Assembly (NCBI RefSeq): GCF_000612545.2
Contig: NZ_CP097800.1
Span: 2,105,001 to 2,169,000, forward strand
Reading direction: 5' to 3'
DNA length: 64,000 nt
Source: Streptomyces sp. PCS3-D2
GTDB lineage: Bacteria; Actinomycetota; Actinomycetes; Streptomycetales; Streptomycetaceae
Shown here one piece after another: positions 10,662 through 38,094 of the stretch. A model generated the notes under the pieces. That model had not been told where the DNA came from. It ran no database searches and saw only the letters and a list, made by a program, of their open reading frames with translations. The position numbers were made by a program, and so were the translations under genes. The number at the start of each line of letters is the position of its first letter. Positions within the stretch are counted from its first letter, which is position 1.

Positions 10662-10857
10662 CTGCGTGACCCCCTTGGTTGGTGTCCGCGTCCGTACTCG
10701 ATTCGCGGATGCGCATGCTGCGCGCGACACCCTACCGGGCGTATGAGCGACAGTCGGCAAGTAGGATCACCGTCGCGCTGGGGATACCCCCTGCGCGCCC
10801 GGGACTTGGGGGCGCCGGTTGCGACGTCCCGTCCGTTTTCGAGGGATTGATGCTCCG

Positions 10858-14814: not shown

Positions 14815-14924
14815 GGTCGGGGGAATCCCGGGCGCCGGCCGGATCGGGGGGAAACCCGTCCCGACCGGCGGCGGCTCCCCGATAATCGGCGGGGAAGACC
14901 GCTCCACCGAAGGAAGGGCCGCCC

Positions 14925-15170
14925 ATGGGCACTCAGCAGGAGAAGGACGAGCTGTACGCGCTCGACATCAGTGGCGTGGAGTGGGAGGGGCCGCCGGGGA
15001 CCAGCCCGGACGAGGAGCGGGTGGAGATCGCGCGGCTTCCCGACGGGGCGGTGGCGATGCGGTCTTCACTGGACCGAGAGACGGTGCTGCGCTACACGGC
15101 CGCCGAGTGGGAGGCCTTCGTACTCGGTGCCAGGGACGGCGAGTTCGACCTGGACCGGCACGAGCCCTGA
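14925..15170 (+). CDS. bldB: DUF397 protein, probable BldB developmental regulator
   Basis: The 81-residue protein is a DUF397 member: SGVEW near the N-terminus, then VEIARLPDGAVAMRSS, and the C-terminal AEWEAFVLGARDGEFDL segment typical of the family. BldB of S. coelicolor is a DUF397 protein required for aerial growth, and from memory it lies within the ESX locus next to esxA/esxB, exactly as here. The symbol therefore rests on family plus position, and the length is somewhat shorter than the 98 residues I recall. A GAAGGAAGG ribosome site precedes the ATG. Unlike most DUF397 genes it has no adjacent helix-turn-helix partner. It converges on the WXG100 genes and ends at a perfect 17-bp hairpin. 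Confidence 0.7.
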   Translation: MGTQQEKDELYALDISGVEWEGPPGTSPDEERVEIARLPDGAVAMRSSLDRETVLRYTAAEWEAFVLGARDGEFDLDRHEP

Positions 15171-15179
15171 GGCGGCAGG

Positions 15180-15226
15180 ACACGCCGAAGGGGCGCGCCC
15201 GGTACGGGTGCGCCCCTTCGGCGTGT
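15180..15226. terminator. Perfect 17-bp bidirectional terminator
   Basis: ACACGCCGAAGGGGCGC (15180-15196) pairs perfectly with 15210-15226 around a 13-base loop. It separates the convergent bldB-like and esx genes. Confidence 0.85.
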
Positions 15227-15256
15227 CGGGACGCCGGACACCGGCTCCCGCAGGGC

Positions 15257-15562
15257 TCAGTAGGCCTCGGTGAAGAGGGTCGAGGCCCGCTTGTCGGTGG
15301 CCCGGTAGTCGTCCTTGCCGCGCTCGATGAGCTTGGCGACCTTCTCCAGCTCCGCGTGCATGGTGTCGGCCTTGGCCTTGTACTTCTTCTGCAGGGCGAC
15401 GTACTCCCGGTGCGCCTCACCGTCCCAGGTGTCCGTGACGACCTTCACGGCCTGCTCCATCTCGGCCAGGTCCTTGAGGATGTTCCCGGAGACGACCCGG
15501 ATGCGGTCCGCCATCTGCTGAACGGTCTCGTACCGGACCCGGGTCCCGTCGTTCGCCGTCAT
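15257..15562 (-). CDS. esxA: WXG100 protein (EsxA/EsxB family)
   Basis: This 101-residue helical-hairpin protein is an ESX substrate of the WXG100 family. The turn motif is W-D-G (DTWDGEAH), and the C-terminal export signal Y-x3-D is present (YRATD). ATG 15562 follows AAGGAG at good spacing; the open frame extending to 15967 is out-of-context readthrough of the upstream gene region. It is the second gene of a pair, 44 bp after the other WXG100 gene, and the two products should form a heterodimer. The names esxA and esxB are assigned from remembered S. coelicolor order (the esx gene next to bldB taken as esxA) and could be swapped. Confidence 0.85.
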   Translation of the reverse strand: MTANDGTRVRYETVQQMADRIRVVSGNILKDLAEMEQAVKVVTDTWDGEAHREYVALQKKYKAKADTMHAELEKVAKLIERGKDDYRATDKRASTLFTEAY

Positions 15563-15606
15563 GTTCTTCTCCTTCTCGCTACGGCCTCGTGGATGGGGGG
15601 CGTTGA

Positions 15607-15954
15607 TCAGATGCCGTCGAGGCCCGAACGCGGGCCCGAGGCGGACGTCGGCTGGACGGCGTTCTTGAACGCGGCCCGCACCTCCTCGTCCTGCGCGTTG
15701 CTGAGGTTCTTGGTCTGCGCCACTGCGTTGTGCAGGACACCGAGGAGCCGGCGGATCTCGTCGTGGCTGTCGTTGAGCGTCGTCTGGGCCGTGATGAAGC
15801 CCGAGGCGCCCACACCGGTCCAGCCCGCGCTCACGGTGGCGATGATGTCGGCCAGCTCGCGGGCCTGCTTGGAGACGGCGGTTCCCGTCTCCTGGATCTT
15901 GTTCTTCGCCTGGACGACCGGATCGTCCGCAAGTCCGAAGGTGTTCGTGCTCAT
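15607..15954 (-). CDS. esxB: WXG100 protein, partner of the downstream Esx protein
   Basis: This 115-residue member of the WXG100 family has the central turn W-T-G (GWTGVGASG) between two predicted helices. It has a longer, flexible glycine/serine/proline-rich tail (residues ~98-115). No clear Y-x3-D signal is visible, so export is probably directed by the partner. It is the first gene of the esx pair and starts at ATG with a GAGGAGC sequence upstream. The 212-bp gap before mycP (15955-16166) contains no gene I can support and presumably holds the promoter. Confidence 0.85.
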   Translation of the reverse strand: MSTNTFGLADDPVVQAKNKIQETGTAVSKQARELADIIATVSAGWTGVGASGFITAQTTLNDSHDEIRRLLGVLHNAVAQTKNLSNAQDEEVRAAFKNAVQPTSASGPRSGLDGI

Positions 15955-16166
15955 CGAAGCTCCTCACTTCTCAATTCGCCGGCAGAACCGGCGGATTGCG
16001 CAGCGGGGAGGGCGTGCCCGGCGCGGCTGTGAGTCACGCGCTCGGTGCAGTCCCCCTCCGCTTCACGCGATCCCCCGATCACACTCGTGAAGCTGCTGCC
16101 ACTCTAGTCAGTTCACGAAACTGTCCCAACACCGGTGGTCTGCTTCCTCGGACGAACCATGGCTGT

Positions 16167-17453
16167 TCACTGCAAACGGCGTCGGCGGCCGCGCGCGTCG
16201 CGGACGACGGTCGCCGTGCCCGCGATGACGGCGATCAGGACGGCGCCGATGCCGAGAGCGTACGTGCCGTAGCGCTCCTGCCGCTCCTGGGCCGTCTCGG
16301 TGAGCCGGAGGGGTGCGGCCTGCGGCGCCGCCGCCGGGGCCGGGCCGGGGTCCGGGACGGGCGCCTTCGGGGCCTCCTGGTCCTGGCTGAGCGCGCGCAC
16401 CGGATCCACCACTCCCCAACCGACGTAGTCGTCACGCCCGTTGACGGTGCGCTCGGCCGTGTTCTGGATCTGCCAGACGATCTGCTGGGCGGACCAGTCC
16501 CGATGCTCGGCGCGCAGCAGGGCAGCGACCCCGGCGACATAAGGCGCGGAGAAGCTGGTGCCGTTGTCGATGCACTGGCCGAAGCCGGGGACGGTGGAGA
16601 CCATGTCCACTCCGGGCGCGGCGACCCCGATGAAGTCGCCGGGCTGGGAGAAGGCGGCGCGCTCGTTGTTGCGGTCGGAGGCGCCGACCGCGAGGACGCC
16701 GGGGAAGGCGGCCGGATAGGTTTTGCGCTTCTGGCCGCTCAAGCCGTCGTTGCCCGCCGAGGCGACGACCACGATGTCGGCGGCGACGGCCTTCTGGACG
16801 GACCTGCCGAGCTCGGAGTCCGCGGTCAACGGGACGTCGGTGTCCTGCGAGATGTTGATGACCTGGGCGCCCTTGGCCACCGCGTGGTCGATCGCCTGAC
16901 TCAGCGAGAGGGCGTTGCCCTTGCCCTGCCCGTCGTTCTGCCGGATGGGGATGATCGTGGCGTCCGGGGCCAGGCCGACGAAGCCCGTGCCGGCCTGGGG
17001 GCGGGCCGCGATCAGCCCGGCGACCTTGGTGCCGTGGCCTACGGTGTCGGTCGTGCCGTCACCGCCCTTGGGATCGACGAAGTCCCTGCCCGCACCGACG
17101 TCGACGGCGCCGCTGAGCTGCGGGTTCGCCCGGTCCACACCGGTGTCGATGACGGCCACCCGGATGCTCGCGCCGCTCTTGTCCTTGCCCTTGGTCTGCG
17201 CCCAGAGCTCGTCGAGGAGGAGCCGCTGGAGGGCCCAGGGGCGGTCTTCGATCTGCTTCTTCATGGGGAAGGTGCACTCCCCCGCGCCGTCCAGGCGCAG
17301 CCCGTACGGGGCGTGCGGCGGGGCGGTGCGGGTCGGGGCGGCCCCGGCCGCAGAGGCGGAGGCGGAGGCGGAGGCGGAGGCGGAGGCGGAGGTCAGGGTG
17401 AGGGCGCAGGCCGCGATGAGCAGCGCGCGCCGGGGCTTGCGGTTCTGGGGCAT
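16167..17453 (-). CDS. mycP: Mycosin-type subtilisin protease MycP
   Basis: Mycosins are membrane-anchored S8 serine proteases essential to ESX systems. The 428-residue protein has a signal peptide extended by a (Ser-Ala) repeat (residues ~22-35) and an intact catalytic triad: Asp103 (AVIDTGVD), His140 (GHGTKVAG) and Ser300 (NGTSFSAP). A proline-rich linker and a single C-terminal helix (about 390-410) ending in RGRRRR follow. I used ATG 17453, preceded by GAGGAA at seven bases. A GTG at 17468 overlapping the eccB stop as GTGA is an alternative adding five residues. It is directly coupled to eccB. The signal-peptide repeat is encoded by a 6-bp microsatellite. Confidence 0.92.
   Translation of the reverse strand: MPQNRKPRRALLIAACALTLTSASASASASASASAAGAAPTRTAPPHAPYGLRLDGAGECTFPMKKQIEDRPWALQRLLLDELWAQTKGKDKSGASIRVAVIDTGVDRANPQLSGAVDVGAGRDFVDPKGGDGTTDTVGHGTKVAGLIAARPQAGTGFVGLAPDATIIPIRQNDGQGKGNALSLSQAIDHAVAKGAQVINISQDTDVPLTADSELGRSVQKAVAADIVVVASAGNDGLSGQKRKTYPAAFPGVLAVGASDRNNERAAFSQPGDFIGVAAPGVDMVSTVPGFGQCIDNGTSFSAPYVAGVAALLRAEHRDWSAQQIVWQIQNTAERTVNGRDDYVGWGVVDPVRALSQDQEAPKAPVPDPGPAPAAAPQAAPLRLTETAQERQERYGTYALGIGAVLIAVIAGTATVVRDARGRRRRLQ
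17353..17392. repeat. Hexanucleotide microsatellite (GAGGCG)n in the mycP signal peptide
   Basis: Six full copies plus a partial copy of GAGGCG run without interruption and encode alternating Ser-Ala on the minus strand. Copy-number change by slippage would stay in frame and only lengthen or shorten the signal region. Confidence 0.9.
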
Positions 17454-17464
17454 CGGCGGCTTCC

Positions 17465-19042
17465 TCACGAACCCTGGGGCTGGCGAGCGGAGTTGGTGTC
17501 GAGCCGGGGCCCCTTGGAGAGGAACTCCGACCAGGCGATGGGCACCATGGCCGGGGTGACACCGCCGTAGCCCAGCCTGACCTGTGCCTGGCTGGCCTCG
17601 GGGCGACCGTCCCCGCCCGCCGTGGACTGGTCGGGGGCGCCGATCCCGGACTGCTCGGCGTCGCTGTCGCCGTTGGCCTGGACGGCGTACCGCAGGCCGG
17701 TGTCGGTGACCAGGAAGAGGGAGCCGCCGGCCGTGGTCTGCTTGCCCTGCACCTGGGTGTAGAGCAGGCCCGTGCCGGGGGTGACGTACGCGCTCGTGCC
17801 GCTGGCCGTGATGTCGACGGGGTAGCTGGTGCCGGCCCAAGTACTCAGGGTCTGGTTGCCCTGGCCGTCGACCGAGCGCAGGACGTTGCAGACGGTGTCG
17901 CGGTTGTTGGACCCGCTCGTCCGGGTGCCTGCGGACGGCGTCGTCCGGTTGATCCGCTCGGTCTTCGCCTGCGGCCACCTGACGTCGCCGGCGAACGGGG
18001 TGGCATCCGGGTCGAGGGACTGGAGGTCGACCTCGCGGGCCTTGCCGTGCATGTTGAGGCCGTCGGTCGCCGGCGCCGAGATCAGCAGCCAGGCGACGAA
18101 GTCGGAGACCGGCGCGACCTTGCCGGGCAGGACCACATAGTGCTGGGCGCCGGAGCCGGTCTGGGCCTTGAGCACCATGCCGACCTTGTTGTCGGCGGTG
18201 GTCAGACCCTTGACGTCGGCGGCGGCTCCCGCCCTGCCGGGCAGGGGCGGGAAGGCCAGGTCGGCACCGGAGTTGAGGGTGCCGAGCCATTCGGGGGTCA
18301 CCTGCTGCGGGGTGGCTCCGGTGCCGACCAGGGCGTTGGTCATGGTGCCGGCGGCCGGGCCGCCCTCGGGGAACCTGTACTTGGTCCCGCTCGCGTCGAC
18401 CAGGTACCGCTCCTTGCCGGGGCCGGTGCTCTCCACGTACAGCGACTGGGTGTCCGCGAGCCTGCGCGCGTCGTCCGTCACGGACGCCTCGCGGTCCGCG
18501 AGGACGAAGGTGGCGGTCTGGACGCCGCGGCCGTTCCCGCCGGGCTGCTGGCAGACGGCCCAGCGCTTGGCCTTGCCGGCCTCGGACTTGGAGGGGAGCC
18601 GGTCGGGGGCGTACGGGATGCCGATGATGGGGCCGCGTGGCGGCGTGCCTGCGTCCAGGACCTTGTCCTCGACCTGGACCACCTTGAACTTCTGCGGGTC
18701 CAGCAGGAGTCGGGCCGAGGCCAGGTTCAGCACCGGGTGCAGGCGGGTCTGGTCCTTGCCGTCCACCTTCGTCGTCAAGACCACGTACCGGGTCGTGGAG
18801 TCCTTGCCGACGATGACCCTCGTTCCGGGCTCGTCCCAGCCCTTGGGGGCGGTCGGCTTGAACATGCCCCAGGCGCCGAACCCGGCGAGCACGAGGGCTC
18901 CGACGATCATCCCCGGCAGGACCGCGCGCAGGGGACGGGGGGCTCCCTCCTCGGTACCCGTGGCGGAGGGCTGGAGGAACGCGGCCACCGTCCGCCGCTT
19001 CGCAAAGGTGTACGCGTTGAGCTCATCGCGTCGTGATGCCAT
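17465..19042 (-). CDS. eccB: Type VII secretion protein EccB
   Basis: EccB is a bitopic ESX component with a large extracytoplasmic domain. The 525-residue protein opens with the family's conserved MASRRDELNAYTFAKRRTV-type segment. One membrane helix (about residues 45-65) and a repeat-containing soluble domain follow, with paired cysteines (CQQPGG, TVCNVL) that may form a disulphide. The ATG at 19042 is chosen because this segment is the usual N-terminus; 24 upstream codons to 19114 lack support. The stop overlaps the possible GTG start of mycP. It is divergent from eccE across a 258-bp gap. Confidence 0.92.
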   Translation of the reverse strand: MASRRDELNAYTFAKRRTVAAFLQPSATGTEEGAPRPLRAVLPGMIVGALVLAGFGAWGMFKPTAPKGWDEPGTRVIVGKDSTTRYVVLTTKVDGKDQTRLHPVLNLASARLLLDPQKFKVVQVEDKVLDAGTPPRGPIIGIPYAPDRLPSKSEAGKAKRWAVCQQPGGNGRGVQTATFVLADREASVTDDARRLADTQSLYVESTGPGKERYLVDASGTKYRFPEGGPAAGTMTNALVGTGATPQQVTPEWLGTLNSGADLAFPPLPGRAGAAADVKGLTTADNKVGMVLKAQTGSGAQHYVVLPGKVAPVSDFVAWLLISAPATDGLNMHGKAREVDLQSLDPDATPFAGDVRWPQAKTERINRTTPSAGTRTSGSNNRDTVCNVLRSVDGQGNQTLSTWAGTSYPVDITASGTSAYVTPGTGLLYTQVQGKQTTAGGSLFLVTDTGLRYAVQANGDSDAEQSGIGAPDQSTAGGDGRPEASQAQVRLGYGGVTPAMVPIAWSEFLSKGPRLDTNSARQPQGS

Positions 19043-19300
19043 GACCGTCTGCTTCTCCCCGCACGGCCCGGCCGGTGAGTACGGTCCCCGGGCCTCGATA
19101 GTCGGACCGGGCACCTACTATGCCTCTTGACGGACGGTACGCAGGGGCCGGGTAGGGTGAGGCAGCCGCTCAGGACCTTCCGCACCGGGGTAATCAGGGC
19201 TTGTTGGGGTGGATTGGGGAGGTTCCGGGGTTCCGTGACGGGTGTCGCGCAACGCCGGAAGTCGTCAGGTCCGGCCCGTGAGAGGGGAAGTGCGCGAGTG

Positions 19301-20575
19301 ATGGCCACGGCGACGGAGCCGCAGACCGGCGCGCCCGCACCCGCACGAGGTGGGGTGGCACCGCACCCTCGGTCGAGCCCCGGCCGGTTCGGCCCGTTCC
19401 GACTGCAACAACTCGTACTGCTCCAGCTCGCGGCGGCCGCGCTGCTCGTGGCGTGGGTGGTCGACCCCCTGCTCCTGGTGCCGGCCGGTGTGCTGGCGCT
19501 GGCGCTGGTGGTCCTCGCGGTCGTACGCCGCCACCAGCGCTCCCTGCCGGAGTGGATCGGCGGTGTGCTCGCCCTGCGGGCCCGGCGCCGCCGGGCCGCG
19601 GCCTCCACCGTGCCCGCGGGCACCGAGCCGGGGCTGGCCCCACTGGTGGAAGCCGATCCGGCGCTGCGCACGCTGACCTTCAGCGATCGCGACCGGCGGC
19701 CCGTCGGCATGGTCGGCGACGGCACCTTCCTGACCGCGGTGGTCCAGGTGGACACCGACGCCACCGCGCTCCGGCCCGAGCGGGCGGCACGACCGCTGCC
19801 GCTCGGTGCCGTACGGGACGTCCTCGAAGTGGACGGCATCCGACTGGAGTCCGCCCAACTGGTGCAGCACACCCAGCCGGCACCGGCCCCTCACCTGCCG
19901 GCGCAGTCGATGGCCGCGCGCAACTACGCCCCACTGCAGGCCCGCACGGGCACCCCGGCGGTGCGGCTGACCTGGATCGCGCTCAAGCTCGACCCGGAGC
20001 TGTGCCCCGAGGCGGTCGCCGCCCGCGGCGGCGGACTGGCCGGCGCGCAGCGGTGTGTGGCGCGGGTGGCGGACCAGCTGGCGAGCCGGCTGGCCGGGGC
20101 CGGGTTCAAGGCCACCGTCCTGACCGAGCAGGAGCTGACGGCAGCTCTGGCCACGTCTTCGTGCGCGAACCCGATGGCGATCACCCAGGCCGGGCGCTCC
20201 GCCAGCACCGGGCGGCGCACCGAGGAGACCTCGCGGACCTGGCGCTGCGACGACCGCCGGCACACCACCTACTGGATCGGCCGCTGGCCCCAGTTGGGCG
20301 GCGCCGGGGCGGCGGCGCTACCGCAGTTCGTGGCACTGCTCACGTCCATGCCCGCGCTCGCCACGAACTTCAGCCTGACGATGGCCGCTGCGGAGCGGCA
20401 GGGCGTGACGCTGACCGGACACGTACGGGTGACAGGGCGCAGCGACGAGGAACTGGTCGCTGCACGAAGGGAGTTGGAGAGGACGGCGCGGGGCGTGAAG
20501 ACCGGGCTGGTGCGGCTCGACCGCGAACAGGTGCCGGGGCTGCTGGCTTCGCTGCCGCTGGGAGGCGCGCGATGA
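19301..20575 (+). CDS. eccE: Type VII secretion protein EccE
   Basis: EccE is a peripheral membrane part of the ESX core complex. The 424-residue product has two close membrane helices (about residues 30-68: LLQLAAAALLVAWVVDPLLLVP and the next), then a cytosolic domain with no obvious catalytic motif. The C-terminal region includes paired cysteines and a PQFVALLTSMPALATNFSL segment characteristic of Streptomyces EccE-type proteins. ATG 19301 is used; a GTG immediately before it is equally possible, with AGAGGGGAAG upstream. The stop overlaps the next gene by four bases (ATGA). Assignment rests on context, topology and length more than on a sharp motif. Confidence 0.8.
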   Translation: MATATEPQTGAPAPARGGVAPHPRSSPGRFGPFRLQQLVLLQLAAAALLVAWVVDPLLLVPAGVLALALVVLAVVRRHQRSLPEWIGGVLALRARRRRAAASTVPAGTEPGLAPLVEADPALRTLTFSDRDRRPVGMVGDGTFLTAVVQVDTDATALRPERAARPLPLGAVRDVLEVDGIRLESAQLVQHTQPAPAPHLPAQSMAARNYAPLQARTGTPAVRLTWIALKLDPELCPEAVAARGGGLAGAQRCVARVADQLASRLAGAGFKATVLTEQELTAALATSSCANPMAITQAGRSASTGRRTEETSRTWRCDDRRHTTYWIGRWPQLGGAGAAALPQFVALLTSMPALATNFSLTMAAAERQGVTLTGHVRVTGRSDEELVAARRELERTARGVKTGLVRLDREQVPGLLASLPLGGAR

Positions 20576-21270
20576 GGGGCGGTTTCGGGCTGGTCGGCCC
20601 GCGGCGGGAGCGACAGGTGGTGCCCGCAGCGGACCTGGACGCGCTGGCCGTGCCCGTCGGGGACGACGGCGTCGTGATCGGCGTCGACGCCGAGGGACGG
20701 TCGGCGGTGCTCGGCATCAACCGGCCGACGCCGTACGAGGTGACCCTGATCGGCGGGCTGTGGACGGCGCAGGTGCTGGCGCTGCGCGCGGCGGCCACCG
20801 GTGCGCGCGTCGCCGTGGAGACCGGACGCGGACAGGTGTGGTCCGGGCTGGCCCGGGCCGCGGGCGGCGGGCAGCAGTGCGTGACCCTGCACGAGGTGGG
20901 CCGGATACCGCCGCAGGGCGCGTCCGCGGGCAGCCCGGTGCTGGTGATCCGCGACTGCGGGATGCGGCCGCCGCGCGGTCGCGTGGTGGCCGGCCCCTGG
21001 CAGTCGGTACTGACCCTGCTGCCGTACCTGAGCCCGACGGCGCCGAGGCTGCTCCAGCAGGCGTCACTCGTGGGCGTGCAGCGGGTGTCGCCGGACGAGG
21101 CGGAGCAGATCGGCCGCCTGATGCAACTGCCCGCGCAGGCCATTGCGTCCCTGCCGACCCTGGGTGACGGGGTGACCCTGTGGTGCACGCCACGGGACCG
21201 GCAGTTCGTGATGACCCAGGGGACCGAGGCGGAGACCGGCCTGTTGGGCGCGGCGCGCCGCATCGACTGA
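20572..21270 (+). CDS. Unrecognised ESX-cluster protein, coupled to eccE
   Basis: This 232-residue protein overlaps eccE by ATGA and lies between eccE and the EspI-like ATPase, so it very probably works with the ESX machine. I do not recognise the family. It has no signal peptide and no convincing membrane helix. The middle segment TLIGGLWTAQVLALRAAATG has the glycine turn and following helix expected of a P-loop region but no Gly-Lys-Ser/Thr, so it may be a nucleotide-binding fold that has lost its P-loop. Four cysteines are scattered through the sequence. Alternatives are a divergent EccE paralogue or a cytosolic adaptor. Confidence 0.75.
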   Translation: MRGGFGLVGPRRERQVVPAADLDALAVPVGDDGVVIGVDAEGRSAVLGINRPTPYEVTLIGGLWTAQVLALRAAATGARVAVETGRGQVWSGLARAAGGGQQCVTLHEVGRIPPQGASAGSPVLVIRDCGMRPPRGRVVAGPWQSVLTLLPYLSPTAPRLLQQASLVGVQRVSPDEAEQIGRLMQLPAQAIASLPTLGDGVTLWCTPRDRQFVMTQGTEAETGLLGAARRID

Positions 21271-21408
21271 CAGGGCGGGCCCCGGGCGACCGCCTGCCCT
21301 CCCCGCGGAGCGGGACGCGGCGGACAGGGGTGGCGCGCCCCGATTAGGCTGGACGCCGGCGTGGCGTGGGTGGACGCCGGAGCAGTGTTCGACAGACCAG
21401 GAGGACCA

Positions 21409-23799
21409 GTGAGCGGCGATCGGAACGAGAGGCGCGGCGGGACGTGGGACGTCCCGACGGACGATCAGTCCGACGCGGAGCCCGAGATGACGGGCGAGTT
21501 CACCATCGACTACACACCACCGGCCTGGTACACGCAGAGCACGGGGTCGGCCGCGCCCGCGCAGGTGCCGGGGCTCCCCGAGGGGAGCGGCTTCGAGCCG
21601 CACCGACCGTCGGACCTGGAGTCGCCCTCGACCATGCGGATCGCTCCGCCGGCGCCGCGGACACCGTCCGCCGGTACCGGTACGCCCCCGCCGTTCCCGC
21701 TCCCCGGCACGGCCGAGGCTCCGGCACCGGCCGCGGAGCCGCCGTACGCGGCTCCCGAGCCGATCACGGCCCCCGAGCTTCCGTACGCGACACCCGCACC
21801 GGCACCGGCACCGGCGCCCGTCGAGGCAGCGCCCGCGCCCCCCGCTCCGGCCCCGGACCCGTACGCCGCACCCGCACCCGCACCGGCGCCCGTCGAGGCA
21901 GCCCCCACCCCGCCCGCGCCCCCCGCTCCGACCCCGATCGCTCCGGCACCGGCCGCTCCGACCCCGGACCCGTACGCCGCCGCACCCGCACCAGCACCGG
22001 CCCCCGCCGAGGCAGCGCCCACGCCGCCCGCGCCCCCCGCTCCGGCCCCGATCGCTCCGGCACCGGTACAGGCCCCCGCGCCCGAGCCGTACACGGACCC
22101 GGCACCAGTTCCGGCCCCCGTGGAGGCGACTCCTCCGGCGCCCGAGCCCGCGGCGCCGTTCCCGGCGGCCGCGGCCGGGCCCGCCGTGGCAGACGCCGCT
22201 GCCTCGGTCCCCGAGGCCCCGACTCCCTTCCCTGCGTTCGCGGCCCCGGCCGAGGAGGCCGCCCCGGAGCCGGCCGATGCCGTGCCCGCGGCGTTCGCGG
22301 CCCCTGCTCCGCCGGCGCCTCCGGCCGAGGCCCCGCCGTACCCCGCGCCCACGCCCGCGCCCGCGCCCGCCGCGGAGCCGGCCATCGCCGCTGCCCCGGT
22401 CGAGGGGGAGAGCCCCTTCGGCGCTCCGCCCGGTGAACTGCCCCCGCTGCCGAACGCGTTCGCGCACCAGGGCGGCGCCTACGGCTTCCCGCCGCCAGCG
22501 CCCGCGCCGCAGCAGCCCCCGCAGCCCCAGCCCCAGCCCGATCCCCGTAACGCCGGTCAGTGGCCCGTCGGCGGCCCGGGCCAGCAGCCGCCGCAGCCCC
22601 AGCCGCACGACCCGCGGTACGCGGCCGGCCCCACCGGCGGCGGCGCGCCGCTCGGCTACACCGCCGCCGTCGAGCTGTCCTCGGACCGGCTGCTGCGCAA
22701 CAAGCAGAAGCCCAGGAGCAACAACAACGGCGCGGGCGGCGGCCTGTTCCGCTTCGGTGGCAAGGCGGCCGAAGCGGAGCGCCGCCGCAAGCTGGAGCTG
22801 ATCCGCACCCCGGTCATGTCCTGCTACCGCATCGCCGTCATCAGCCTCAAGGGCGGCGTCGGCAAGACCACGACCACCACCGCCCTCGGCGCCACCCTCG
22901 CCACCGAGCGCCAGGACAAGATCCTGGCCATCGACGCGAACCCCGACGCCGGCACGCTCGGCCGCCGTGTCCGGCGCGAGACCGGCGCGACGATCCGGGA
23001 CCTGGTCCAGGCGATCCCGTACCTGAACTCGTACATGGACATTCGCCGCTTCACCTCGCAGGCGCCCTCCGGCCTGGAGATCATCGCCAACGACGTGGAC
23101 CCGGCGGTCTCCACGACCTTCAACGACGAGGACTACCGCCGTGTCATCGAGACGCTGGGGCGGCAGTACCCGATCATCCTGACCGATTCGGGCACCGGTC
23201 TCCTCTACTCCGCCATGCGCGGCGTCCTGGACCTGGCCGACCAGCTGATCATCATCTCGACCCCGTCCGTGGACGGCGCCAGCAGTGCCAGCACCACCCT
23301 CGACTGGCTCTCCGCCCACGGGTACGCGGACCTCGTCTCCCGTTCCATCACCGTCATCTCCGGCGTCCGCGAGACCGCCAAGATGATCAAGACCGAGGAC
23401 ATCGTGCAGCACTTCGAGACCCGCTGCCGAGGTGTCGTCGTGGTGCCGTTCGACGAACACCTCGCGGCCGGCGCCGAGGTCGATCTCGACATGATGCGAC
23501 CCAAGACCCGTGAGGCGTACTTCAACCTGTCCGCCCTGGTGGCCGAGGACTTCCTGCGGGCCCAGCAGCAGGCGCCGCAGAACCACTGGGGGGCGCCGCA
23601 GCAGCCCCAGCAGCCCCACCCCCAGCAGCCGCAGCACCACCAGCCGCAGCCGCCGCCCCAGCCGTACGGACAGCCCCAGGGCCAGCCCCCGTACCAGCAG
23701 CCGGCCCCGCAGCCGGGGCCCTACGGCCAGCCGTACCCGCAGCAGCCGCAGCCCGGCCAGCCCTGGCAGCAGCCGCCGCGCGACCCGCGCCTGGGCTGA
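21409..23799 (+). CDS. EspI-like ParA/MinD ATPase with proline-rich arms
   Basis: The 796-residue protein has three parts. An N-terminal ~440-residue low-complexity region is dominated by Ala-Pro dipeptides and Glu-rich repeats. A SIMIBI-class ATPase domain follows, with the deviant P-loop KGGVGKTT (Lys481, Lys486) and a D-A-N-P-D segment. A Pro-Gln-rich tail occupies roughly the last 75 residues. This layout is that of mycobacterial EspI (proline-rich arm plus ParA-like domain), an ESX regulator linked to ATP level. I used GTG 21409 behind AGGAGG (spacing four); an open frame to 21361 is also possible. It closes the ESX locus and is followed by a 27-bp perfect hairpin. Confidence 0.8.
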
Positions 23800-23895: not shown

Positions 23896-24852
23896 TCAGC
23901 GCTTGATGTCGTACGCGTCGGTCAGCACCCGTGCCCGCTTGACGTCGTCGGCGATCGCCTCCAGCAGCCCGTCCAGCGACTCGAACTTCGCCATCCCCCG
24001 CACGTACGCGAGGAAGTCGACGGCCACGTGCTTTCCGTACAGGTCCAACCCGACCCGGTCGATCGCGTACGCCTCGACCGTCCGCTCGGTCGCGTCGAAC
24101 TGCACGTTCGTCCCCACCGAGATCGCCGCGGGCATCCGCTCGCCGTCCGCCGTCAGCCAGCCCGCGTAGACCCCGTCCGCCGGGATCGCGGTGTGCGGCT
24201 GCGTCTCCACGTTCGCCGTCGGGTAGCCGAGTTCCCGCCCGCGCTGCGCTCCGCGCACCACCACGCCCTCGACCCGGTGCGGACGCCCCAGGACCTCGGC
24301 CGCACCGTCCATGTCGCCCTCGGCGACCAGCCGGCGCGCCAGCGTCGACGAGAAGGGCACGCCGCCGCCCGCCTCGCCGCGCTCCACGAGGTCGACGACC
24401 TCGACCCGGTAGTCGTACGTGGAACCCAGCTCGCGCAGGAAGTCGACGTTCCCTGCGGCCCGGTGGCCGAAGCGGAAGTTCGGGCCCTCGATCACGGCCA
24501 GGGCGTGCAGCTTGTCGACGAGCACCTTCACGATGAAGTCGGCCGGGGACAGCTGCGAGAACTCCGCGGTGAACGGCAGGATCAGCAGCGCGTCCACGCC
24601 CAGTCCGGCCATCAGCTCGGCGCGGCGGTCGTAGGGGGCCAGGATCGGCGGGTGGCTGCCGGGGCGGACGACCTCGCTCGGGTGCGGGTCGAAGGTGACG
24701 ACGACGGACGGGACGCCGAGCTCGCGCGCAGCGGCCACGGCCCGTCCGATGATCAGCTGATGTCCCCGGTGCACGCCGTCGTAGGAGCCGATGGTGACGA
24801 CGCTGCGTCCCCAGTCCTGGGGGATGTCCTCCAAGCCACGCCACCGCTGCAC
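23896..24852 (-). CDS. ribF: Bifunctional riboflavin kinase / FAD synthetase
   Basis: RibF phosphorylates riboflavin to FMN and adenylylates it to FAD. The 318-residue protein has an N-terminal nucleotidyltransferase domain with the GSYDGVHRGHQ motif (usual form G-x-FDG-V-H-x-GH) and a P-F-S-S-T-x-A-R segment. The C-terminal kinase domain has the GRELGYPTAN motif that binds Mg/ATP and the downstream catalytic glutamate region EAYAID. GTG 24852 has GAGGAG about ten bases upstream. It is downstream of, and probably separate from, the large protease-NTPase gene. The usual neighbour truB is one gene away. Confidence 0.95.
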   Translation of the reverse strand: MQRWRGLEDIPQDWGRSVVTIGSYDGVHRGHQLIIGRAVAAARELGVPSVVVTFDPHPSEVVRPGSHPPILAPYDRRAELMAGLGVDALLILPFTAEFSQLSPADFIVKVLVDKLHALAVIEGPNFRFGHRAAGNVDFLRELGSTYDYRVEVVDLVERGEAGGGVPFSSTLARRLVAEGDMDGAAEVLGRPHRVEGVVVRGAQRGRELGYPTANVETQPHTAIPADGVYAGWLTADGERMPAAISVGTNVQFDATERTVEAYAIDRVGLDLYGKHVAVDFLAYVRGMAKFESLDGLLEAIADDVKRARVLTDAYDIKR

Positions 24853-24988: not shown

Positions 24989-27900
24989 TCATGTCACATC
25001 CGCGGCGGCCCGGCCGAGCGTCTCCACCGCCCGCCGGGCACCGGGCCCCAGCAGGGCCGCCGCCTCCGTGGCCGCCTGGGCCAGCCAGCGGGCCACGAGC
25101 TCCCCGAAGGCCGGCTGGGCCAGGGCCAGCTCCACCGTGCGCCGCTCGAAGACGGCCGGACCGCCGGGAACCCCCAGCAGCTGCCGCCCGGTGCGCCGCA
25201 GCAGTTCCCGCGTGCGTTCCTCCGGGCGTACCGCGGCACCGGCCGCGACCGCACCGAGGAAGGCGTCCAGCACCCGCGGGTCCTTCTCCTCCCGCAGCAG
25301 TACGGCGGCCAGATCGCCGCGCAGCGCGTGCGAGTGCTCCCCGCCCGGCGCGCCCAGCACGACGGCGAGCTCCGCGCGCACCCCGGCCGGCGCGGTCCGC
25401 AGCAGGTCCAGCACGAGCGGGCGCAGCGCGGGGCCGGCTGCAGGCCCCTGCTCCAGCCGCCGGTTCACGAACGCCGCGGCGTGCGGCGCGTCCCCGGGGC
25501 TACGGGCCAGGTGCTCCCTCACGAGCTCGGCCGCGCGCCGGGCCAGCCCCGGCGTGTTCAGCTCGGCCAGGGACCGCAGCACCTCGCCGTCGGCGCGGTC
25601 CCGCAGGGCGGCGAGTACCGCGTCCTGGTCCGGCAGCACAGGCAGGGCCGCGACCAGCGCGGCGGCGGGCAGCCGGGAGCCGGGCTCGGGGTCGCGGAAC
25701 GACGCGAGGGCGTCGGGCAGGTAGCGGGCCCGCACCTGCGGGTCGCGCAGCAGCACGGCGAGCGCACTGCCGTGCAGGGTGGCGTCACCGGGGCGGGCGA
25801 GTAGCGCCCGGGCCGCGCGGCGCAGCAGCTCCCGGTCGGCGGGGGTGCGGACGTGCGGGGCGGTGGCGAGGCCGTAGGCGGCTGCGGCGACCCTGCGCGA
25901 GGGCCGTTCGTCGTGTGCCCAGCGGTCCACCGCCCGGCACAGCGCGGAGGGCTCCTCCTCGGCGAGTACGGCGAGCAACTCGTCGGCGCGCGGGTGCGCG
26001 GCGGTGACGAGCGCTTCGGTGAGGTCGTCCGGGGCGAGGTGGCGGTGGGTGTGCAGCAGGGCCTGCGCGGCGGTGGCGACGGTGGCCCCCGGGCGTCCGC
26101 GCAGCCGGCGGCCGTCGGCGAACCAGGCGCAGAGCAGCGGCTGGGTCCGCCGGGGATCCCGGACCAGTCGGCGGGCCACGGCGTCGAGGTAGCGGTCGCC
26201 GGGGACCGCCTCGGCGGGGTCCGCGGGCAGCAGGCGGCGCAGCAGGTCGAGACGGACCGGCTCGGCCAGCCGGAGCCGGTTCCAGAACCAGCCGTCGTAC
26301 TCGCCCGGGCCGGCCCGGGCCACGTGCTCGGCGAGGGCGTGCAGAACGGCGAGGTGGGGGTGCGCGTCGGGGAGGCGCAGCAAGGTCTCGCGCAGCAGCC
26401 GGTCGGCCCACCAGGCGCGGTCGGCGTCACCGTCGCGGGCGCCGTCGGCCGGGACGTCGGCCGGGACTGCCGTCCGGACGTCGGCCCGGACCCCGGCCGG
26501 GACGTCGGTGCAGCCGCCCAGGGCACGGACCAGCCGGGTGAGTTCCTCGCCCAGCCGGTCCGGGGGAAGGCGGAGCAGGGCTTCCAGGACGGGCCCGATA
26601 CGGTGCCGGGGCACGGCCGGCCCGGGCCGGGCGGGGCCGTGGACGAGGGTACCGAGCGCTGTGGCGACGTCGAGGTGGCAGGCCTGGATCCAGTCGGACA
26701 GTTCCTCGTGGGCGAAGCGGTAGCCGGACCCGGCGGGCTCCAGCAGGCCCTCGGCGAGGACGGCGCAGGCCCAGCCGGTGCGCCACGGGAACAGTTCCTC
26801 GAAGGAGGCGCGGTCCAGTTGCCCCCGCCCGGGTCCCAGGCAGCGGCGGGCCGCTTCGTGCACACGGCCGGCGACGCGGGCGGCGAGCCTCCTGACACCG
26901 GGCCCGTGCACGCGGGCGCCCCCGGCGTCGGTGCCTGCGGCGGCGATGCGGACCGCGCTGCGCAGGCACAGCAGGTCCAGGTGGGCGGCGAACACCTCGT
27001 CGCGGCCGGGGCGGCCCGCGGTGACCTCGGCGGCGCGAATCCCGGCGAGTAGGTGCAGGGTGAGCGGATGCCGGGCGTCGGCCTCGCCGACGGCGTCGGC
27101 GGGGATGCCGAGGCGGGCCCGGGCGGTCTCCGCCTCGGCGGTGGTGAGGTCGCCGAGAAGGAGGGCGGGCGGCAGTCGGCGGGCCGCCCGGGCCGGGACG
27201 TGCAGCGACTCGGGCCGGTGGAGGGCGCCGGCCCGCTCCCAGTACTCGGGGCGGGCGGCGACGACCAGGCGGGCCCCGGTTCCGCTCAGCCACGCGTCGG
27301 TGGCCTCGGTCCACGGCCCGAGCCGGTGGGCGAGCCCGGGCGGCATCTCCTCGGGCGCGTCCAGCACGATGAGCAGGGTCCGACCGGCGCGGGCGACGAC
27401 CCCGGCGAGCCGCACGGCGACTCCCTCGGGGTCCCCGTTCTCCCCTCCGGTGTCCGGACCCGCCGGACCCGCGCCGTCTCCCGCCGTGTCCGCGCGGCTG
27501 GAGTCCGGTTGCCACCGGTTGGCCGAGGTCCCGCCGGAGCCGGACACCGGCCGTCCGTGCCACCCGTCGGGCGGGGATCCCCGGGGGCCGGGCACCGGCC
27601 GGCCCCCGGACTCGCCCGGTGTGGACCCGACCGGGTCGGGCGCCGCCCGGCTGCGCCACTCGCCCGACCGGGACCGTTCGTACCGGGCCCCGGGGCCGTC
27701 GCCCTCCGGTGCGGCCGGGGCCCGGTCGACGGGACCCTCGGCGGCGACGTGCGACGCCGCCGTGAGGGCGCGTGCCGCCGCATCCGCCAGGGAGGTGTCG
27801 TCGGGGTGCAGGTCCGCCCCGCGCAGCCACAGCGTGGGTGCGGGTCGGGGGCCGCGCGCCCGGCGGGCGGCCAGCGCCGCCAGCTCCGTGGTGCGGCCCG

Positions 27901-28681
27901 TGCCGGGGTGCCCGACGAGGCCCAGCACCCGGCGGTCCCCCGTCGTGAAGGCCTCCAGTTCGGCGGCAATGGCGGGCCGCTCCACCAGCGGGTCGGGCAG
28001 GAGAGCGGAGCGCATGGTGGTCGCGGTCAGTTCCAGCGCCCCGGCGAGGTTCAGGTCGGCGCCGCGGCCCGGCACGACCGCCGCGTTGCGTTCCAGCAGC
28101 GCGGCCAACGGGCCCCGCGGGTCGGCGCCGGCCGCGGCCCGCAGCGCCACCGCGAAGCCTCCGCGGCGGTGCTCCGCGCGCAGAGCGGTGCCCAGTACCG
28201 CGAGCACCGCCCCGGTGACGGCGTCCAGGACCGGCGCCCCGCAGGCCTCCCCGCCCTGTGCGAGCGCGTCGCGGCCGTCGGTGCCGATCGCCAGCTCCAC
28301 CGCCGCTCCGGGGGGCACCGCGTACACCCGCAGCCCGCCGGCCGCCGGGTAGGTGACCTGCGCGCCGCCCAGTACCCGCGCCTGCCGCCAGCCTTGCGCC
28401 GGCACCCGTACGTAGGTCCCCGGATCGATCGCCTCGCGCTGCGCCACCGGCAGCGGCCGCACCCCGAGTCCGTCCGTGCGGATGAGGGCCAGGGCGACGC
28501 CGGGCAGTTCGGTCACGTCGGCCGCGTCGGCCAGCCAGGTCCGCCCCGAGGCCCGCACCATGACCCGGGACAGGCCGTCGACGGCCTCGTGGCTGGTGAC
28601 GACCGTCCCGCGGTCGTCCGCGACGAACCCGCTGCCCCGTTCGCGCCCCGCCGGATCGCAGATCGTGACGAGTTCCGCCAT
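24989..28681 (-). CDS. Degenerate trypsin-like domain fused to a P-loop NTPase and helical repeats
   Basis: The 1230-residue protein has three regions. Residues ~1-190 look like a chymotrypsin-fold protease: GSGFV, then His31 in the T-S-H-E-A-V position. The Asp position appears to be glycine (Gly61, GVALALIRTD), and the Ser motif reads EACGAP with Cys147 in place of serine. Residues ~230-480 form a P-loop NTPase whose Walker A is GHPGTGRTT, with Arg263 for the lysine, and whose Walker B is LIVLDAPEE (Asp441). A ~110-residue Gly/Pro/Ser-rich insert separates the two motifs. Residues ~560-1230 are Ala/Leu/Arg-rich helices suggestive of HEAT-type repeats. ATG 28681 follows GGAG. It recalls trypsin-STAND conflict proteins, but its chemistry seems lost or altered. 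Confidence 0.75.
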   Translation of the reverse strand: MAELVTICDPAGRERGSGFVADDRGTVVTSHEAVDGLSRVMVRASGRTWLADAADVTELPGVALALIRTDGLGVRPLPVAQREAIDPGTYVRVPAQGWRQARVLGGAQVTYPAAGGLRVYAVPPGAAVELAIGTDGRDALAQGGEACGAPVLDAVTGAVLAVLGTALRAEHRRGGFAVALRAAAGADPRGPLAALLERNAAVVPGRGADLNLAGALELTATTMRSALLPDPLVERPAIAAELEAFTTGDRRVLGLVGHPGTGRTTELAALAARRARGPRPAPTLWLRGADLHPDDTSLADAAARALTAASHVAAEGPVDRAPAAPEGDGPGARYERSRSGEWRSRAAPDPVGSTPGESGGRPVPGPRGSPPDGWHGRPVSGSGGTSANRWQPDSSRADTAGDGAGPAGPDTGGENGDPEGVAVRLAGVVARAGRTLLIVLDAPEEMPPGLAHRLGPWTEATDAWLSGTGARLVVAARPEYWERAGALHRPESLHVPARAARRLPPALLLGDLTTAEAETARARLGIPADAVGEADARHPLTLHLLAGIRAAEVTAGRPGRDEVFAAHLDLLCLRSAVRIAAAGTDAGGARVHGPGVRRLAARVAGRVHEAARRCLGPGRGQLDRASFEELFPWRTGWACAVLAEGLLEPAGSGYRFAHEELSDWIQACHLDVATALGTLVHGPARPGPAVPRHRIGPVLEALLRLPPDRLGEELTRLVRALGGCTDVPAGVRADVRTAVPADVPADGARDGDADRAWWADRLLRETLLRLPDAHPHLAVLHALAEHVARAGPGEYDGWFWNRLRLAEPVRLDLLRRLLPADPAEAVPGDRYLDAVARRLVRDPRRTQPLLCAWFADGRRLRGRPGATVATAAQALLHTHRHLAPDDLTEALVTAAHPRADELLAVLAEEEPSALCRAVDRWAHDERPSRRVAAAAYGLATAPHVRTPADRELLRRAARALLARPGDATLHGSALAVLLRDPQVRARYLPDALASFRDPEPGSRLPAAALVAALPVLPDQDAVLAALRDRADGEVLRSLAELNTPGLARRAAELVREHLARSPGDAPHAAAFVNRRLEQGPAAGPALRPLVLDLLRTAPAGVRAELAVVLGAPGGEHSHALRGDLAAVLLREEKDPRVLDAFLGAVAAGAAVRPEERTRELLRRTGRQLLGVPGGPAVFERRTVELALAQPAFGELVARWLAQAATEAAALLGPGARRAVETLGRAAADVT

Positions 28682-28918: not shown

Positions 28919-29854
28919 TCAGACGAAGACCGCGAGGGACTTCGCCTTCCCGTTCTTGCTCTCGACGAGCCCGAGGAGCTGCCCCTGCGGTCCGAAGACC
29001 GCGACGGTACGGCCGTCCCCGTACTCCTCCGGCATGTCGATCCGCACGCCGTTGGCGAGCAGCGACGCCCGCCGGGTGTCCAGGTCCCAGCGCGGGAAGG
29101 CCGCCGCGGCCGCCTCCCCGATCGGCATGACGGTCAGCTCCTCCTGGAGCTGGTCCAGGGTCCGGGCGCGGTCGAGCTTGTACGGGCCCACCCGCGTGCG
29201 GCGCAGCGCGGTCAGGTGTCCGCCGACGCCGAGGTCGGCGCCGAGGTCGCGGGCGAGGGCCCGGATGTACGTCCCGCTGGAGCAGACCACGGAGACGACG
29301 AGGTCGACGACCTTGGTGCCGTCCTCGGCCTCCGCCTCCCGCATGTCGTACACCTGGAACGACGAGATGGTCACCGGCCTGGCCGGGATCTCGAAGTCCT
29401 CGCCGTCGCGGGCGCGCTTGTAGGAGCGTACGCCCTTGATCTTGATGGCGCTGACCTTGGACGGGACCTGCATGATCTCGCCCGAGAGCTTGGCGACGCC
29501 CGCGTCCACGGCGTCCCGGGTGACCCCGGTGGCGTCCGTGGAGGTGGTGATCTCGCCCTCGGCGTCGTCCGTCAGGGTGTTCTGTCCCAGGCGGATGGTG
29601 CCGACGTACTCCTTCTCCGTGAGCGCGAGGTGGCCGAGGAGCTTGGTGGCCTTCTCCACTCCGAGGACCAGGACGCCGGTCGCCATCGGGTCGAGGGTGC
29701 CGGCGTGGCCGACGCGGCGGGTCTTGGCGATCCCGCGCATCTTGGCGACCACGTCGTGCGAGGTGAAGCCTGCGGGCTTGTCGACGATGACGAGTCCGCC
29801 CCCGGCCTCGGGCCGGGAGGGACCGCCAGGCGTCTTCCCTGCATTGGTGCTCAT
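28919..29854 (-). CDS. truB: tRNA pseudouridine(55) synthase
   Basis: TruB makes pseudouridine 55 in the T-loop of tRNAs. The 311-residue protein has the catalytic motif GHAGTLDPMATGVL with the nucleophilic aspartate, preceded by KPAGFTSHDVV and followed by the SGTYIRALARDLG segment. A C-terminal PUA-like domain reads through GQLLGLVE. ATG 29854 overlaps the rbfA stop as ATGA, so the two are translationally coupled in the infB-DUF503-rbfA-truB order common in bacteria. Confidence 0.96.
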   Translation of the reverse strand: MSTNAGKTPGGPSRPEAGGGLVIVDKPAGFTSHDVVAKMRGIAKTRRVGHAGTLDPMATGVLVLGVEKATKLLGHLALTEKEYVGTIRLGQNTLTDDAEGEITTSTDATGVTRDAVDAGVAKLSGEIMQVPSKVSAIKIKGVRSYKRARDGEDFEIPARPVTISSFQVYDMREAEAEDGTKVVDLVVSVVCSSGTYIRALARDLGADLGVGGHLTALRRTRVGPYKLDRARTLDQLQEELTVMPIGEAAAAAFPRWDLDTRRASLLANGVRIDMPEEYGDGRTVAVFGPQGQLLGLVESKNGKAKSLAVFV

Positions 29855-37191: not shown

Positions 37192-38094
37192 ATGGCTTTC
37201 GAACCGCCGCAGCGGCTTGTACGGGCGCTCGGCGAGACGCCGGAGACGGCGCAGGACGCGGACTGGCTGGGGCGGCTGCCCGGGCTCACCGAGGCCGCGC
37301 TCTCCCGGCGGGGGGTACGGGCCCAGCGGGTGCAGGCCCCGGGCGGCCGCAGCAGTCTGGTCGTCCTCGTCGCCTACCCGGACGGGACCCCGGCCGCCCT
37401 GAAGCTGGCGCCCCCGCACGCCCGGCCCGACCGGGAGCTGGCCGCGCTGGCGCACTGGGGCGGTTTCGGCGCCGTACGCGTCCTCGACACCCGCCACCAC
37501 CAGGACGACGGGGCCCTGCTGCTGGAGCGGCTGCACGCGGAGGTGTCGCTGCGGTCCCTGCCGGAGGCGAAGGCCCAGCTGGAGGCGACCGGCACACTGC
37601 GCCGGCTGTGGGTGGCGCCGCCCGCCGGGCACGGCTGGGAGTCGGTGGCCGAACGCACCGCGCGGCAGTCGCAGGCCCTGCGGGAGGCCCCGGCGGAGGC
37701 CCGCGCACTCGCCGACGCCGCCCTGGCCCTGCGGGAGGAGCTGGTGGCGGCCCCGCCGGAGGAACTGCTGCTGCACGGGAACTTCCGGCAGGGCAAGGTC
37801 CTGGCGGGCGAGCGGGCGCCGTGGCTGGCGGTGGGCCCCGACCCGCTGGTCGGCGAGCGGGCGTACGACCTGGCGCGGCTGGTCAGGGACCGGCTGGAGG
37901 ACCAGGTCGCCTCCTCCGCCGGAGCGGCGGGAGCCCGGCGCCGGGTGAACAAGCTGGCGGACGCGCTGGACGTGGACCGGGACCGGCTGCGGGGCTGGAC
38001 GCTCTTCCGGGCCGTGGAATCGGGCCACCGTGCCCTGGCCGCCGGACGGCGCCGGGACGCGGAACTGCTGCTGGAGTTCGCCGCCTGGTTGTAG
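37192..38094 (+). CDS. Aminoglycoside-phosphotransferase-fold protein, probable pseudokinase
   Basis: The 300-residue protein resembles streptomycin 6-kinase/APH enzymes. The ATP lysine (Lys71, AALKLAP) and the following helix glutamate (Glu82) are kept, as is the LVGERAYDLARL segment that follows the metal site in this family. The catalytic loop, however, reads LLHGNFRQGKVL where active members have HGD and a downstream asparagine: Asn197 replaces the catalytic Asp and Lys202 the metal-binding Asn. The metal aspartate of the IDPKP motif is replaced by glycine (Gly215, VGPDP). It follows the DUF4439 gene by 16 bp. A regulatory or binding role seems likelier than drug resistance. Confidence 0.8.
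   Translation: MAFEPPQRLVRALGETPETAQDADWLGRLPGLTEAALSRRGVRAQRVQAPGGRSSLVVLVAYPDGTPAALKLAPPHARPDRELAALAHWGGFGAVRVLDTRHHQDDGALLLERLHAEVSLRSLPEAKAQLEATGTLRRLWVAPPAGHGWESVAERTARQSQALREAPAEARALADAALALREELVAAPPEELLLHGNFRQGKVLAGERAPWLAVGPDPLVGERAYDLARLVRDRLEDQVASSAGAAGARRRVNKLADALDVDRDRLRGWTLFRAVESGHRALAAGRRRDAELLLEFAAWL

Follow-up and report, generated by a model that had tools for sequence, protein, structure and literature searches.

A predicted NLR-like protein with a pseudo-trypsin domain and an arginine P-loop, encoded between truB and ribF in Streptomyces

The 64,000-nucleotide stretch of Streptomyces sp. PCS3-D2 analyzed here (contig NZ_CP097800.1, positions 2,105,001 to 2,169,000; hereafter the window) carries, between truB and ribF, a large gene whose product joins a trypsin-like domain to a putative nucleoside triphosphatase (NTPase) and a helical-repeat region. 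Both active sites look altered, and the gene stands among genes of translation, next to some that serve to mature ribosomes and tRNA. A preliminary description, made from the letters alone, had pointed to His31, Gly61, GEACGAP with Cys147, GHPGTGRTT with Arg263, and Asp441, all of which are present at those numbers, and had suggested a Cys-type or inactive protease joined to a nucleotide switch. The product is probably a vertically inherited, predicted NLR-like protein in which a trypsin fold that would bind without cutting is followed by a NACHT-like switch with an invariant arginine and by a HEAT-like scaffold. At the level of sequence, this reading is based on the loss of the His/Asp/Ser set, the invariance of the arginine, the intact Walker B motif, the conserved gene order, and purifying selection; the three folds (trypsin, NACHT-like, and HEAT-like) are predicted.

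24989..28681, minus strand: whole gene, encoding a 1230-amino-acid pseudo-trypsin, NACHT-like NTPase and HEAT-like protein (open frame, homologues, purifying selection)

The frame runs uninterrupted on the minus strand from an ATG at 28681 to a stop at 24989, and the source genome (7.63 Mb in three contigs) holds one copy, the single match at E ≤ 0.001. Scoring of 7975 candidates gave 2444 homologues at E ≤ 1e-3, and Pfam Trypsin_2 matched 30 of 34 family members at E ≤ 0.1, more than chance would give, with the window protein itself falling under the Pfam cut-off (21.8 vs 27.6 bits). Among the matches listed, the nearest relatives are Streptomyces proteins, many of them annotated as 'serine protease', and the relatives sampled come from Streptomyces, Actinacidiphila, Streptantibioticus, and one Actinomycetia bin; 79 of the best 80 of 175 loci with the gene are from Streptomyces. 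A plasmid collection returned one match, partial and with 8% coverage, and a search of the open-access literature found no publication on the protein.

Column counts were taken from an alignment of 426 rows, comprising the window protein, 71 loci, and 354 proteins drawn from lists of the best 120 of 2444, of 250, and of 2012; no two rows are identical, many are close relatives, and the rows are mutually related rather than independent trials. The 71 loci are those of the best 80 that had an N-terminal match (nine lacked it), and exclusion of four with broken frames (L005, L038, L056, and L081) left 67 for identity and for the ratio of nonsynonymous to synonymous substitution (dN/dS). The 34-member sets, A1 and A2, hold the window protein and 33 loci chosen for diversity from these 67, with L012 omitted as too long; set A3 holds 15 loci. 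The tree, rooted at its midpoint, covers the 293 of the 426 rows with less than 15% gaps, and a set of close homologues (n=121) includes the window protein.

28112..28681, minus strand: trypsin/HtrA-fold domain, residues 1-190, judged catalytically dead (Pfam Trypsin_2; AlphaFold2 model; Foldseek and VIA-align)
28574..28597, minus strand: TSHEAVDG, residues 29-36, with Glu32 in the catalytic His column and His31 one before it (ungapped alignment to HhoA; column counts)
28499..28501, minus strand: Gly61 in the catalytic Asp column (alignment to HhoA; column counts)
28232..28252, minus strand: GEACGAP, residues 144-150, with Cys147 in the nucleophile column (profile alignment; column counts)

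The predicted model of residues 1-190 matches Rv3671c, HtrA, and MamO in Foldseek and VIA-align, consistent with a chymotrypsin-type fold. HtrA and Rv3671c are the closest solved folds to this domain; the 1230-residue protein differs from them in the replacement of the catalytic His, Asp, and Ser, in its fusion to an NTPase, and in the absence of a Pfam match to a PDZ domain, none being returned for the window protein or the 34 members scanned. Its HMMER alignment to HhoA, a solved HtrA-type protease, is free of gaps over residues 15-40 and lays TSHEAVDG over HhoA TNAHVVDG, with His31 opposite Ala and Glu32 opposite His. The profile of 34 relatives agrees, and the predicted secondary structure, a strand at residues 26-30 and a short helix at 31-34, fits the same placement. 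The His of TNAHVVDG and the other HhoA residues used here are those that we take to be catalytic in HtrA proteases. The earlier statement that the catalytic histidine is kept as His31 was a motif shift of exactly one residue, whereas the assignment of Gly61 to the Asp position held, since Gly61 aligns over the Asp of HhoA TDLAV. Residue 147 falls in the nucleophile column by profile alignment, which is the better guide because the single-sequence alignment to HhoA has a gap there.

Over the 426 rows, the catalytic His column holds Glu in 406, Gln in 7, Arg in 3, Asp in 2, a gap in 8, and His in none; His31, off that column, is conserved in 415 of 418 covering rows. The Asp column is led by Glu (177), Gly (129), Ala (54), His (28), and Asp (18), and the nucleophile column reads Ala 178, Cys 138, Ser 68, Thr 19, Val 14, Ile 4, Arg 3, and Gly 2. 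Cys147 is kept in 120 of 121 close homologues, and the column is Ala in 60 of the 71 more diverse loci (Cys 6, Arg 2, Ser 2, Gly 1). One half of the tree carries Cys (120 of 124 rows) and the other Ala, Ser, or Thr (166 of 169). Cysteine in place of serine is thus correct for the window protein and is not a trait of the family. Reconstructed changes on the tree number 2 at His31, 4 at Glu32, 16 in the nucleophile column, and 47 in the Asp column, with a trypsin-domain median of 16; by these counts, the nucleophile column evolves like an average column and the His31-Glu32 pair is guarded.

Judged by these columns, the sampled family is a pseudoprotease that lacks a conventional serine- or cysteine-protease site. 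A Cys-type protease is not supported: His is missing from the catalytic column in all 418 rows covering it, and the nucleophile column, though variable, most frequently reads Ala. Orthologues with a canonical serine do exist, and none of the 68 such rows has His in the catalytic column. Loss limited to a single lineage was rejected, as the missing histidine and Arg263 hold over the 426 rows. The public name 'serine protease' therefore misleads, the catalytic histidine being present in no sampled row.

A trypsin-type fold put to another use has a precedent in MamO of magnetotactic bacteria, which likewise has an HtrA/trypsin fold without catalysis and ranks 6 and 19 in Foldseek for model 1. In the available passages on MamO, Thr is the predicted nucleophile, His116 and Asp149 are kept, metal is bound through two surface histidines, and a TauE-type domain is fused (PMC4794232). 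The protein described here differs in lacking the catalytic His and in being fused to an NTPase.

27002..28048, minus strand: NACHT-like NTPase region, residues 212-560
27887..27913, minus strand: Walker A GHPGTGRTT, residues 257-265, with Arg263 at the Lys position (Arg in 425 of 425 ungapped rows; unchanged on the tree)
27407..27745, minus strand: disordered insert, residues 313-425, long in this strain (model confidence; length comparison)
27347..27376, minus strand: Walker B LLIVLDAPEE, residues 436-445 (counts for Asp441 and Glu444)
27236..27256, minus strand: Sensor-1-like ARPEYWE, residues 476-482 (Arg477 in 378 of 397 ungapped rows)
27062..27070, minus strand: HPL, residues 538-540, resembling the STAND P-motif (Pro539 in 368 of 372 ungapped rows)
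26612..27001, minus strand: helical or winged-helix-like stretch, residues 561-690 (inside the NLRP3/NLRC4 match; secondary structure)
24992..26611, minus strand: HEAT-like helical solenoid, residues 691-1230 (AlphaFold2 model with a predicted local distance difference test score (pLDDT) of 86; Foldseek and VIA-align)

The second altered site is of another kind. Arginine in place of the Walker A lysine is a family trait, as Arg263 occupies every ungapped row (425 of 425, with one gap and never a Lys), including 121 of 121 close homologues and all 70 ungapped diverse loci. The Walker B acids are kept as well (Asp441 in 394 of 401 ungapped rows, Glu444 in 393 of 402). Arg263, Gly260, Gly262, Thr265, Asp441, and Glu444 pass through the whole tree without a change, Gly257 changes once, Glu445 three times, and Thr264 seven times, to Ser. 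Arg477 may correspond to the NACHT sensor arginine, with which it is equated by position from passages on NLRP3, and the likeness of HPL to the STAND P-motif is our assumption. The claim that both catalytic sets are lost holds for the protease and is too strong for the NTPase, in which the Walker A glycines and Thr/Ser, the Walker B Asp and Glu, and Arg477 are retained; with a single departure from consensus, identical in every row read, the NTPase cannot be called dead as far as its motifs indicate.

The insert at 27407-27745, between Walker A and Walker B, is specific to this strain and rich in Gly, Pro, and Ser. Model confidence is below 50 at residues 317-415, and the length of the stretch ranges from 11 to 290 with a median of 20 over 68 rows.

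The predicted model of the NTPase region matches NLRP3 and NLRC4, which points to a NACHT-like fold, and the model of the solenoid resembles the PP2A scaffold and importins in Foldseek and VIA-align. The combination of a trypsin-like domain, a STAND-like NTPase, and helical repeats, recognized in the preliminary description, is in this way supported by Pfam and by the predicted structures. The Foldseek and VIA-align listings consist mostly of trypsin matches and so reveal little about which folds are unlike the NTPase part. NLRP3, NLRC4, and bacterial NACHT proteins share with the predicted model the NACHT-like core and a C-terminal repeat scaffold. The 1230-residue protein departs from animal NLRs in its Walker A arginine, its pseudo-trypsin N-terminus, its HEAT-like rather than leucine-rich repeats, and its conserved single locus.

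In other P-loop proteins, arginine at the Walker A lysine position preserves nucleotide binding better than alanine does. The Walker A lysine is present in all 14 human NLRPs and that of NLRP3 touches the beta and gamma phosphates, its replacement in K232A cutting turnover threefold, according to the passages available from PMC9633759. A search of the open-access literature found nothing on a Walker A motif with arginine instead of lysine. The invariant arginine P-loop lends itself to a clean test of how a nucleotide switch might operate once the standard lysine is gone.

28919..29854, minus strand: truB, upstream neighbor (Pfam TruB_N; gene order conserved in 75 of 80 loci)
23896..24852, minus strand: ribF, downstream neighbor (reading frame and tblastn; the name is taken from the preliminary description, without a family search)

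The order rbfA, truB, the 1230-residue gene, and ribF on one strand is found in 75 of 80 loci, and ribF adjoins the gene in 79 of 80 by tblastn; in the five remaining loci, the contig begins less than 400 bases from the gene or contains little more. The upstream side in the window encodes RimP, NusA, IF-2, and TruB, which bears out the earlier description of a housekeeping rather than a defense neighborhood. Retention of an NLR-like machine at a single housekeeping position throughout the Streptomyces sampled would be an uncommon instance of such a protein serving the cell itself instead of acting as a variable defense gene.

Purifying selection is seen in all four stretches compared. The 79 pairs with at least 80% identity give median dN/dS values of 0.23 (trypsin domain), 0.25 and 0.44 (two NTPase stretches), and 0.32 (solenoid), no pair exceeding 1 in any of them; a pseudogene was rejected on this basis. 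Median identity to the window protein over the 67 loci is 58% for the trypsin domain and 55% for the solenoid, and median best-segment identity is 52% for the whole protein and 84%, 84%, and 86% for RibF, TruB, and RbfA, respectively. In these comparisons, the 1230-residue protein is under constraint yet evolves faster than its neighbors.

Under the NLR-like reading, the trypsin fold, lacking its histidine, would grip a protein or peptide without cleaving it, much as proposed for inactive trypsin domains of bacterial conflict systems (PMC7159879); MamO, a dead relative of HtrA, likewise performs a different task without catalysis (PMC4794232). The arginine P-loop would still bind ATP, with slow or no hydrolysis, so that the switch may be set by the binding of a partner rather than by rapid hydrolysis, and the HEAT-like solenoid would serve as the scaffold behind it. 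The partner may be a component of the cell itself rather than of a phage. A bolder form of the proposal, speculative and rather doubtful, is that an NLR-type switch was domesticated in the translation gene cluster of Streptomyces, reading protein ends with a non-cutting protease fold while the arginine P-loop holds its nucleotide unspent, a chemistry not yet described for NACHT proteins.

Several observations weigh against the NLR-like reading. The AlphaFold2 prediction called model 1 is uneven, with a pLDDT of 77.3 for the best of its five models and 63.5-68.5 for the remaining four. At E ≤ 0.1, the Pfam NACHT model fits only 5 of the 34 members (nSTAND_NTPase5 fits 13 and AAA_16 fits 15), and the window member matches none of the three. 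Decay of the protease site is partial in places, with Ser retained in 68 and Asp in 18 of 426 rows at their respective columns. The faster evolution relative to neighboring genes would fit a role in sensing foreign molecules as well. In two of the 75 loci (L060 and L069), an additional 2.5-2.9 kb separates the gene from ribF. The frame is broken in four of 71 loci (L005, L038, L056, and L081), whether by genuine loss or by a fault of assembly, and a number of shortened copies come from long contigs, some of megabase size (e.g., P0123, 728 amino acids); some strains may be able to do without the gene, or the sequences concerned may contain errors.

The rival that survives best, unlikely as it is, holds that the protein is an anti-phage or other conflict-system NLR that came to a fixed chromosomal locus by chance. 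It draws on the predicted NLR-like architecture and the quicker evolution than neighboring genes, and on reports of phage protection by bacterial NACHT proteins (PMC12169576, in the passages available) and of inactive trypsin domains in bacterial conflict systems. In the VMAP/iSTAND systems, as the accessible sections of PMC7159879 describe them, trypsin domains that take the place of the vWA effector almost always lack activity and are proposed to grip without cutting, and iSTAND denotes an inactive form of the STAND NTPase; the likeness is a trypsin-type domain before or beside NTPase machinery. The same sections give iSTAND systems as almost entirely absent from actinobacteria. The gene differs from these systems in its fixed housekeeping locus, the truB-ribF position being shared by those 75 of 80 loci, and in having no MoxR or vWA gene among the 18 window frames scanned, 17 of them no farther away than about 24 kb below the gene or 16 kb above it. 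PADLOC returned for the window protein only OloA at E 0.03, nothing firm, and for the 34 members only mad8 at E 7.8e-4 in one, with no match in the window member. Phage sensing is frequent among NLR-like proteins, but the locus and the defense library lend a defense role no support.

Also distinctly unlikely is an ordinary ATP-hydrolyzing switch in which arginine simply stands for lysine and the trypsin domain is a structural spacer. The retained Walker A Gly and Thr/Ser and Walker B Asp and Glu would be expected of such a switch; however, Lys never appears at position 263 in 425 rows though many nearby columns vary, which suggests a role of its own for the arginine, and the guarding of His31-Glu32 (two and four changes, where the median trypsin column has 16) would be needless in a spacer.

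Very improbable is an active, unconventional protease in which Cys147 pairs with His31 or Glu32. These residues are strongly conserved (His31 in 415 and Glu32 in 406 of 418 rows, Cys147 in 120 of 121 close homologues), but the gap-free alignment sets His31 one residue away from the catalytic column, and of the 426 rows 178 have Ala and 23 have Val, Ile, Arg, or Gly as the nucleophile while the site is otherwise unaltered. A decaying gene on its way out, to which the frame breaks in four of 71 loci and the short entries on long contigs might point, is hardly credible given dN/dS below 1 in all four stretches and NTPase motifs that are invariant over 293 full-length rows.

Past ribF, the window holds a type VII (ESX) secretion cluster at 9144-23799, with EccD, an FtsK/SpoIIIE ATPase, WXG100, EccB, EccE, and a proline-rich ParA-like protein. 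The last of these, a ParA/MinD-like protein at 21361-23799, has a long Pro/Ala-rich N-terminus and a core with a median best-segment identity of 89% over 65 loci. A fixed link between this cluster and the 1230-residue gene was considered and rejected; the ParA-like marker was unseen in 14 of the 76 loci with rbfA, truB, and ribF, in some of which, including L001, L032, and L076, the stretch ends. On the other side, upstream of rimP and on the other strand, a protein of the aminoglycoside/hydroxyurea kinase family is encoded at 37192-38094 (APH_6_hur, E 1.1e-62), beside a DUF4439 gene.

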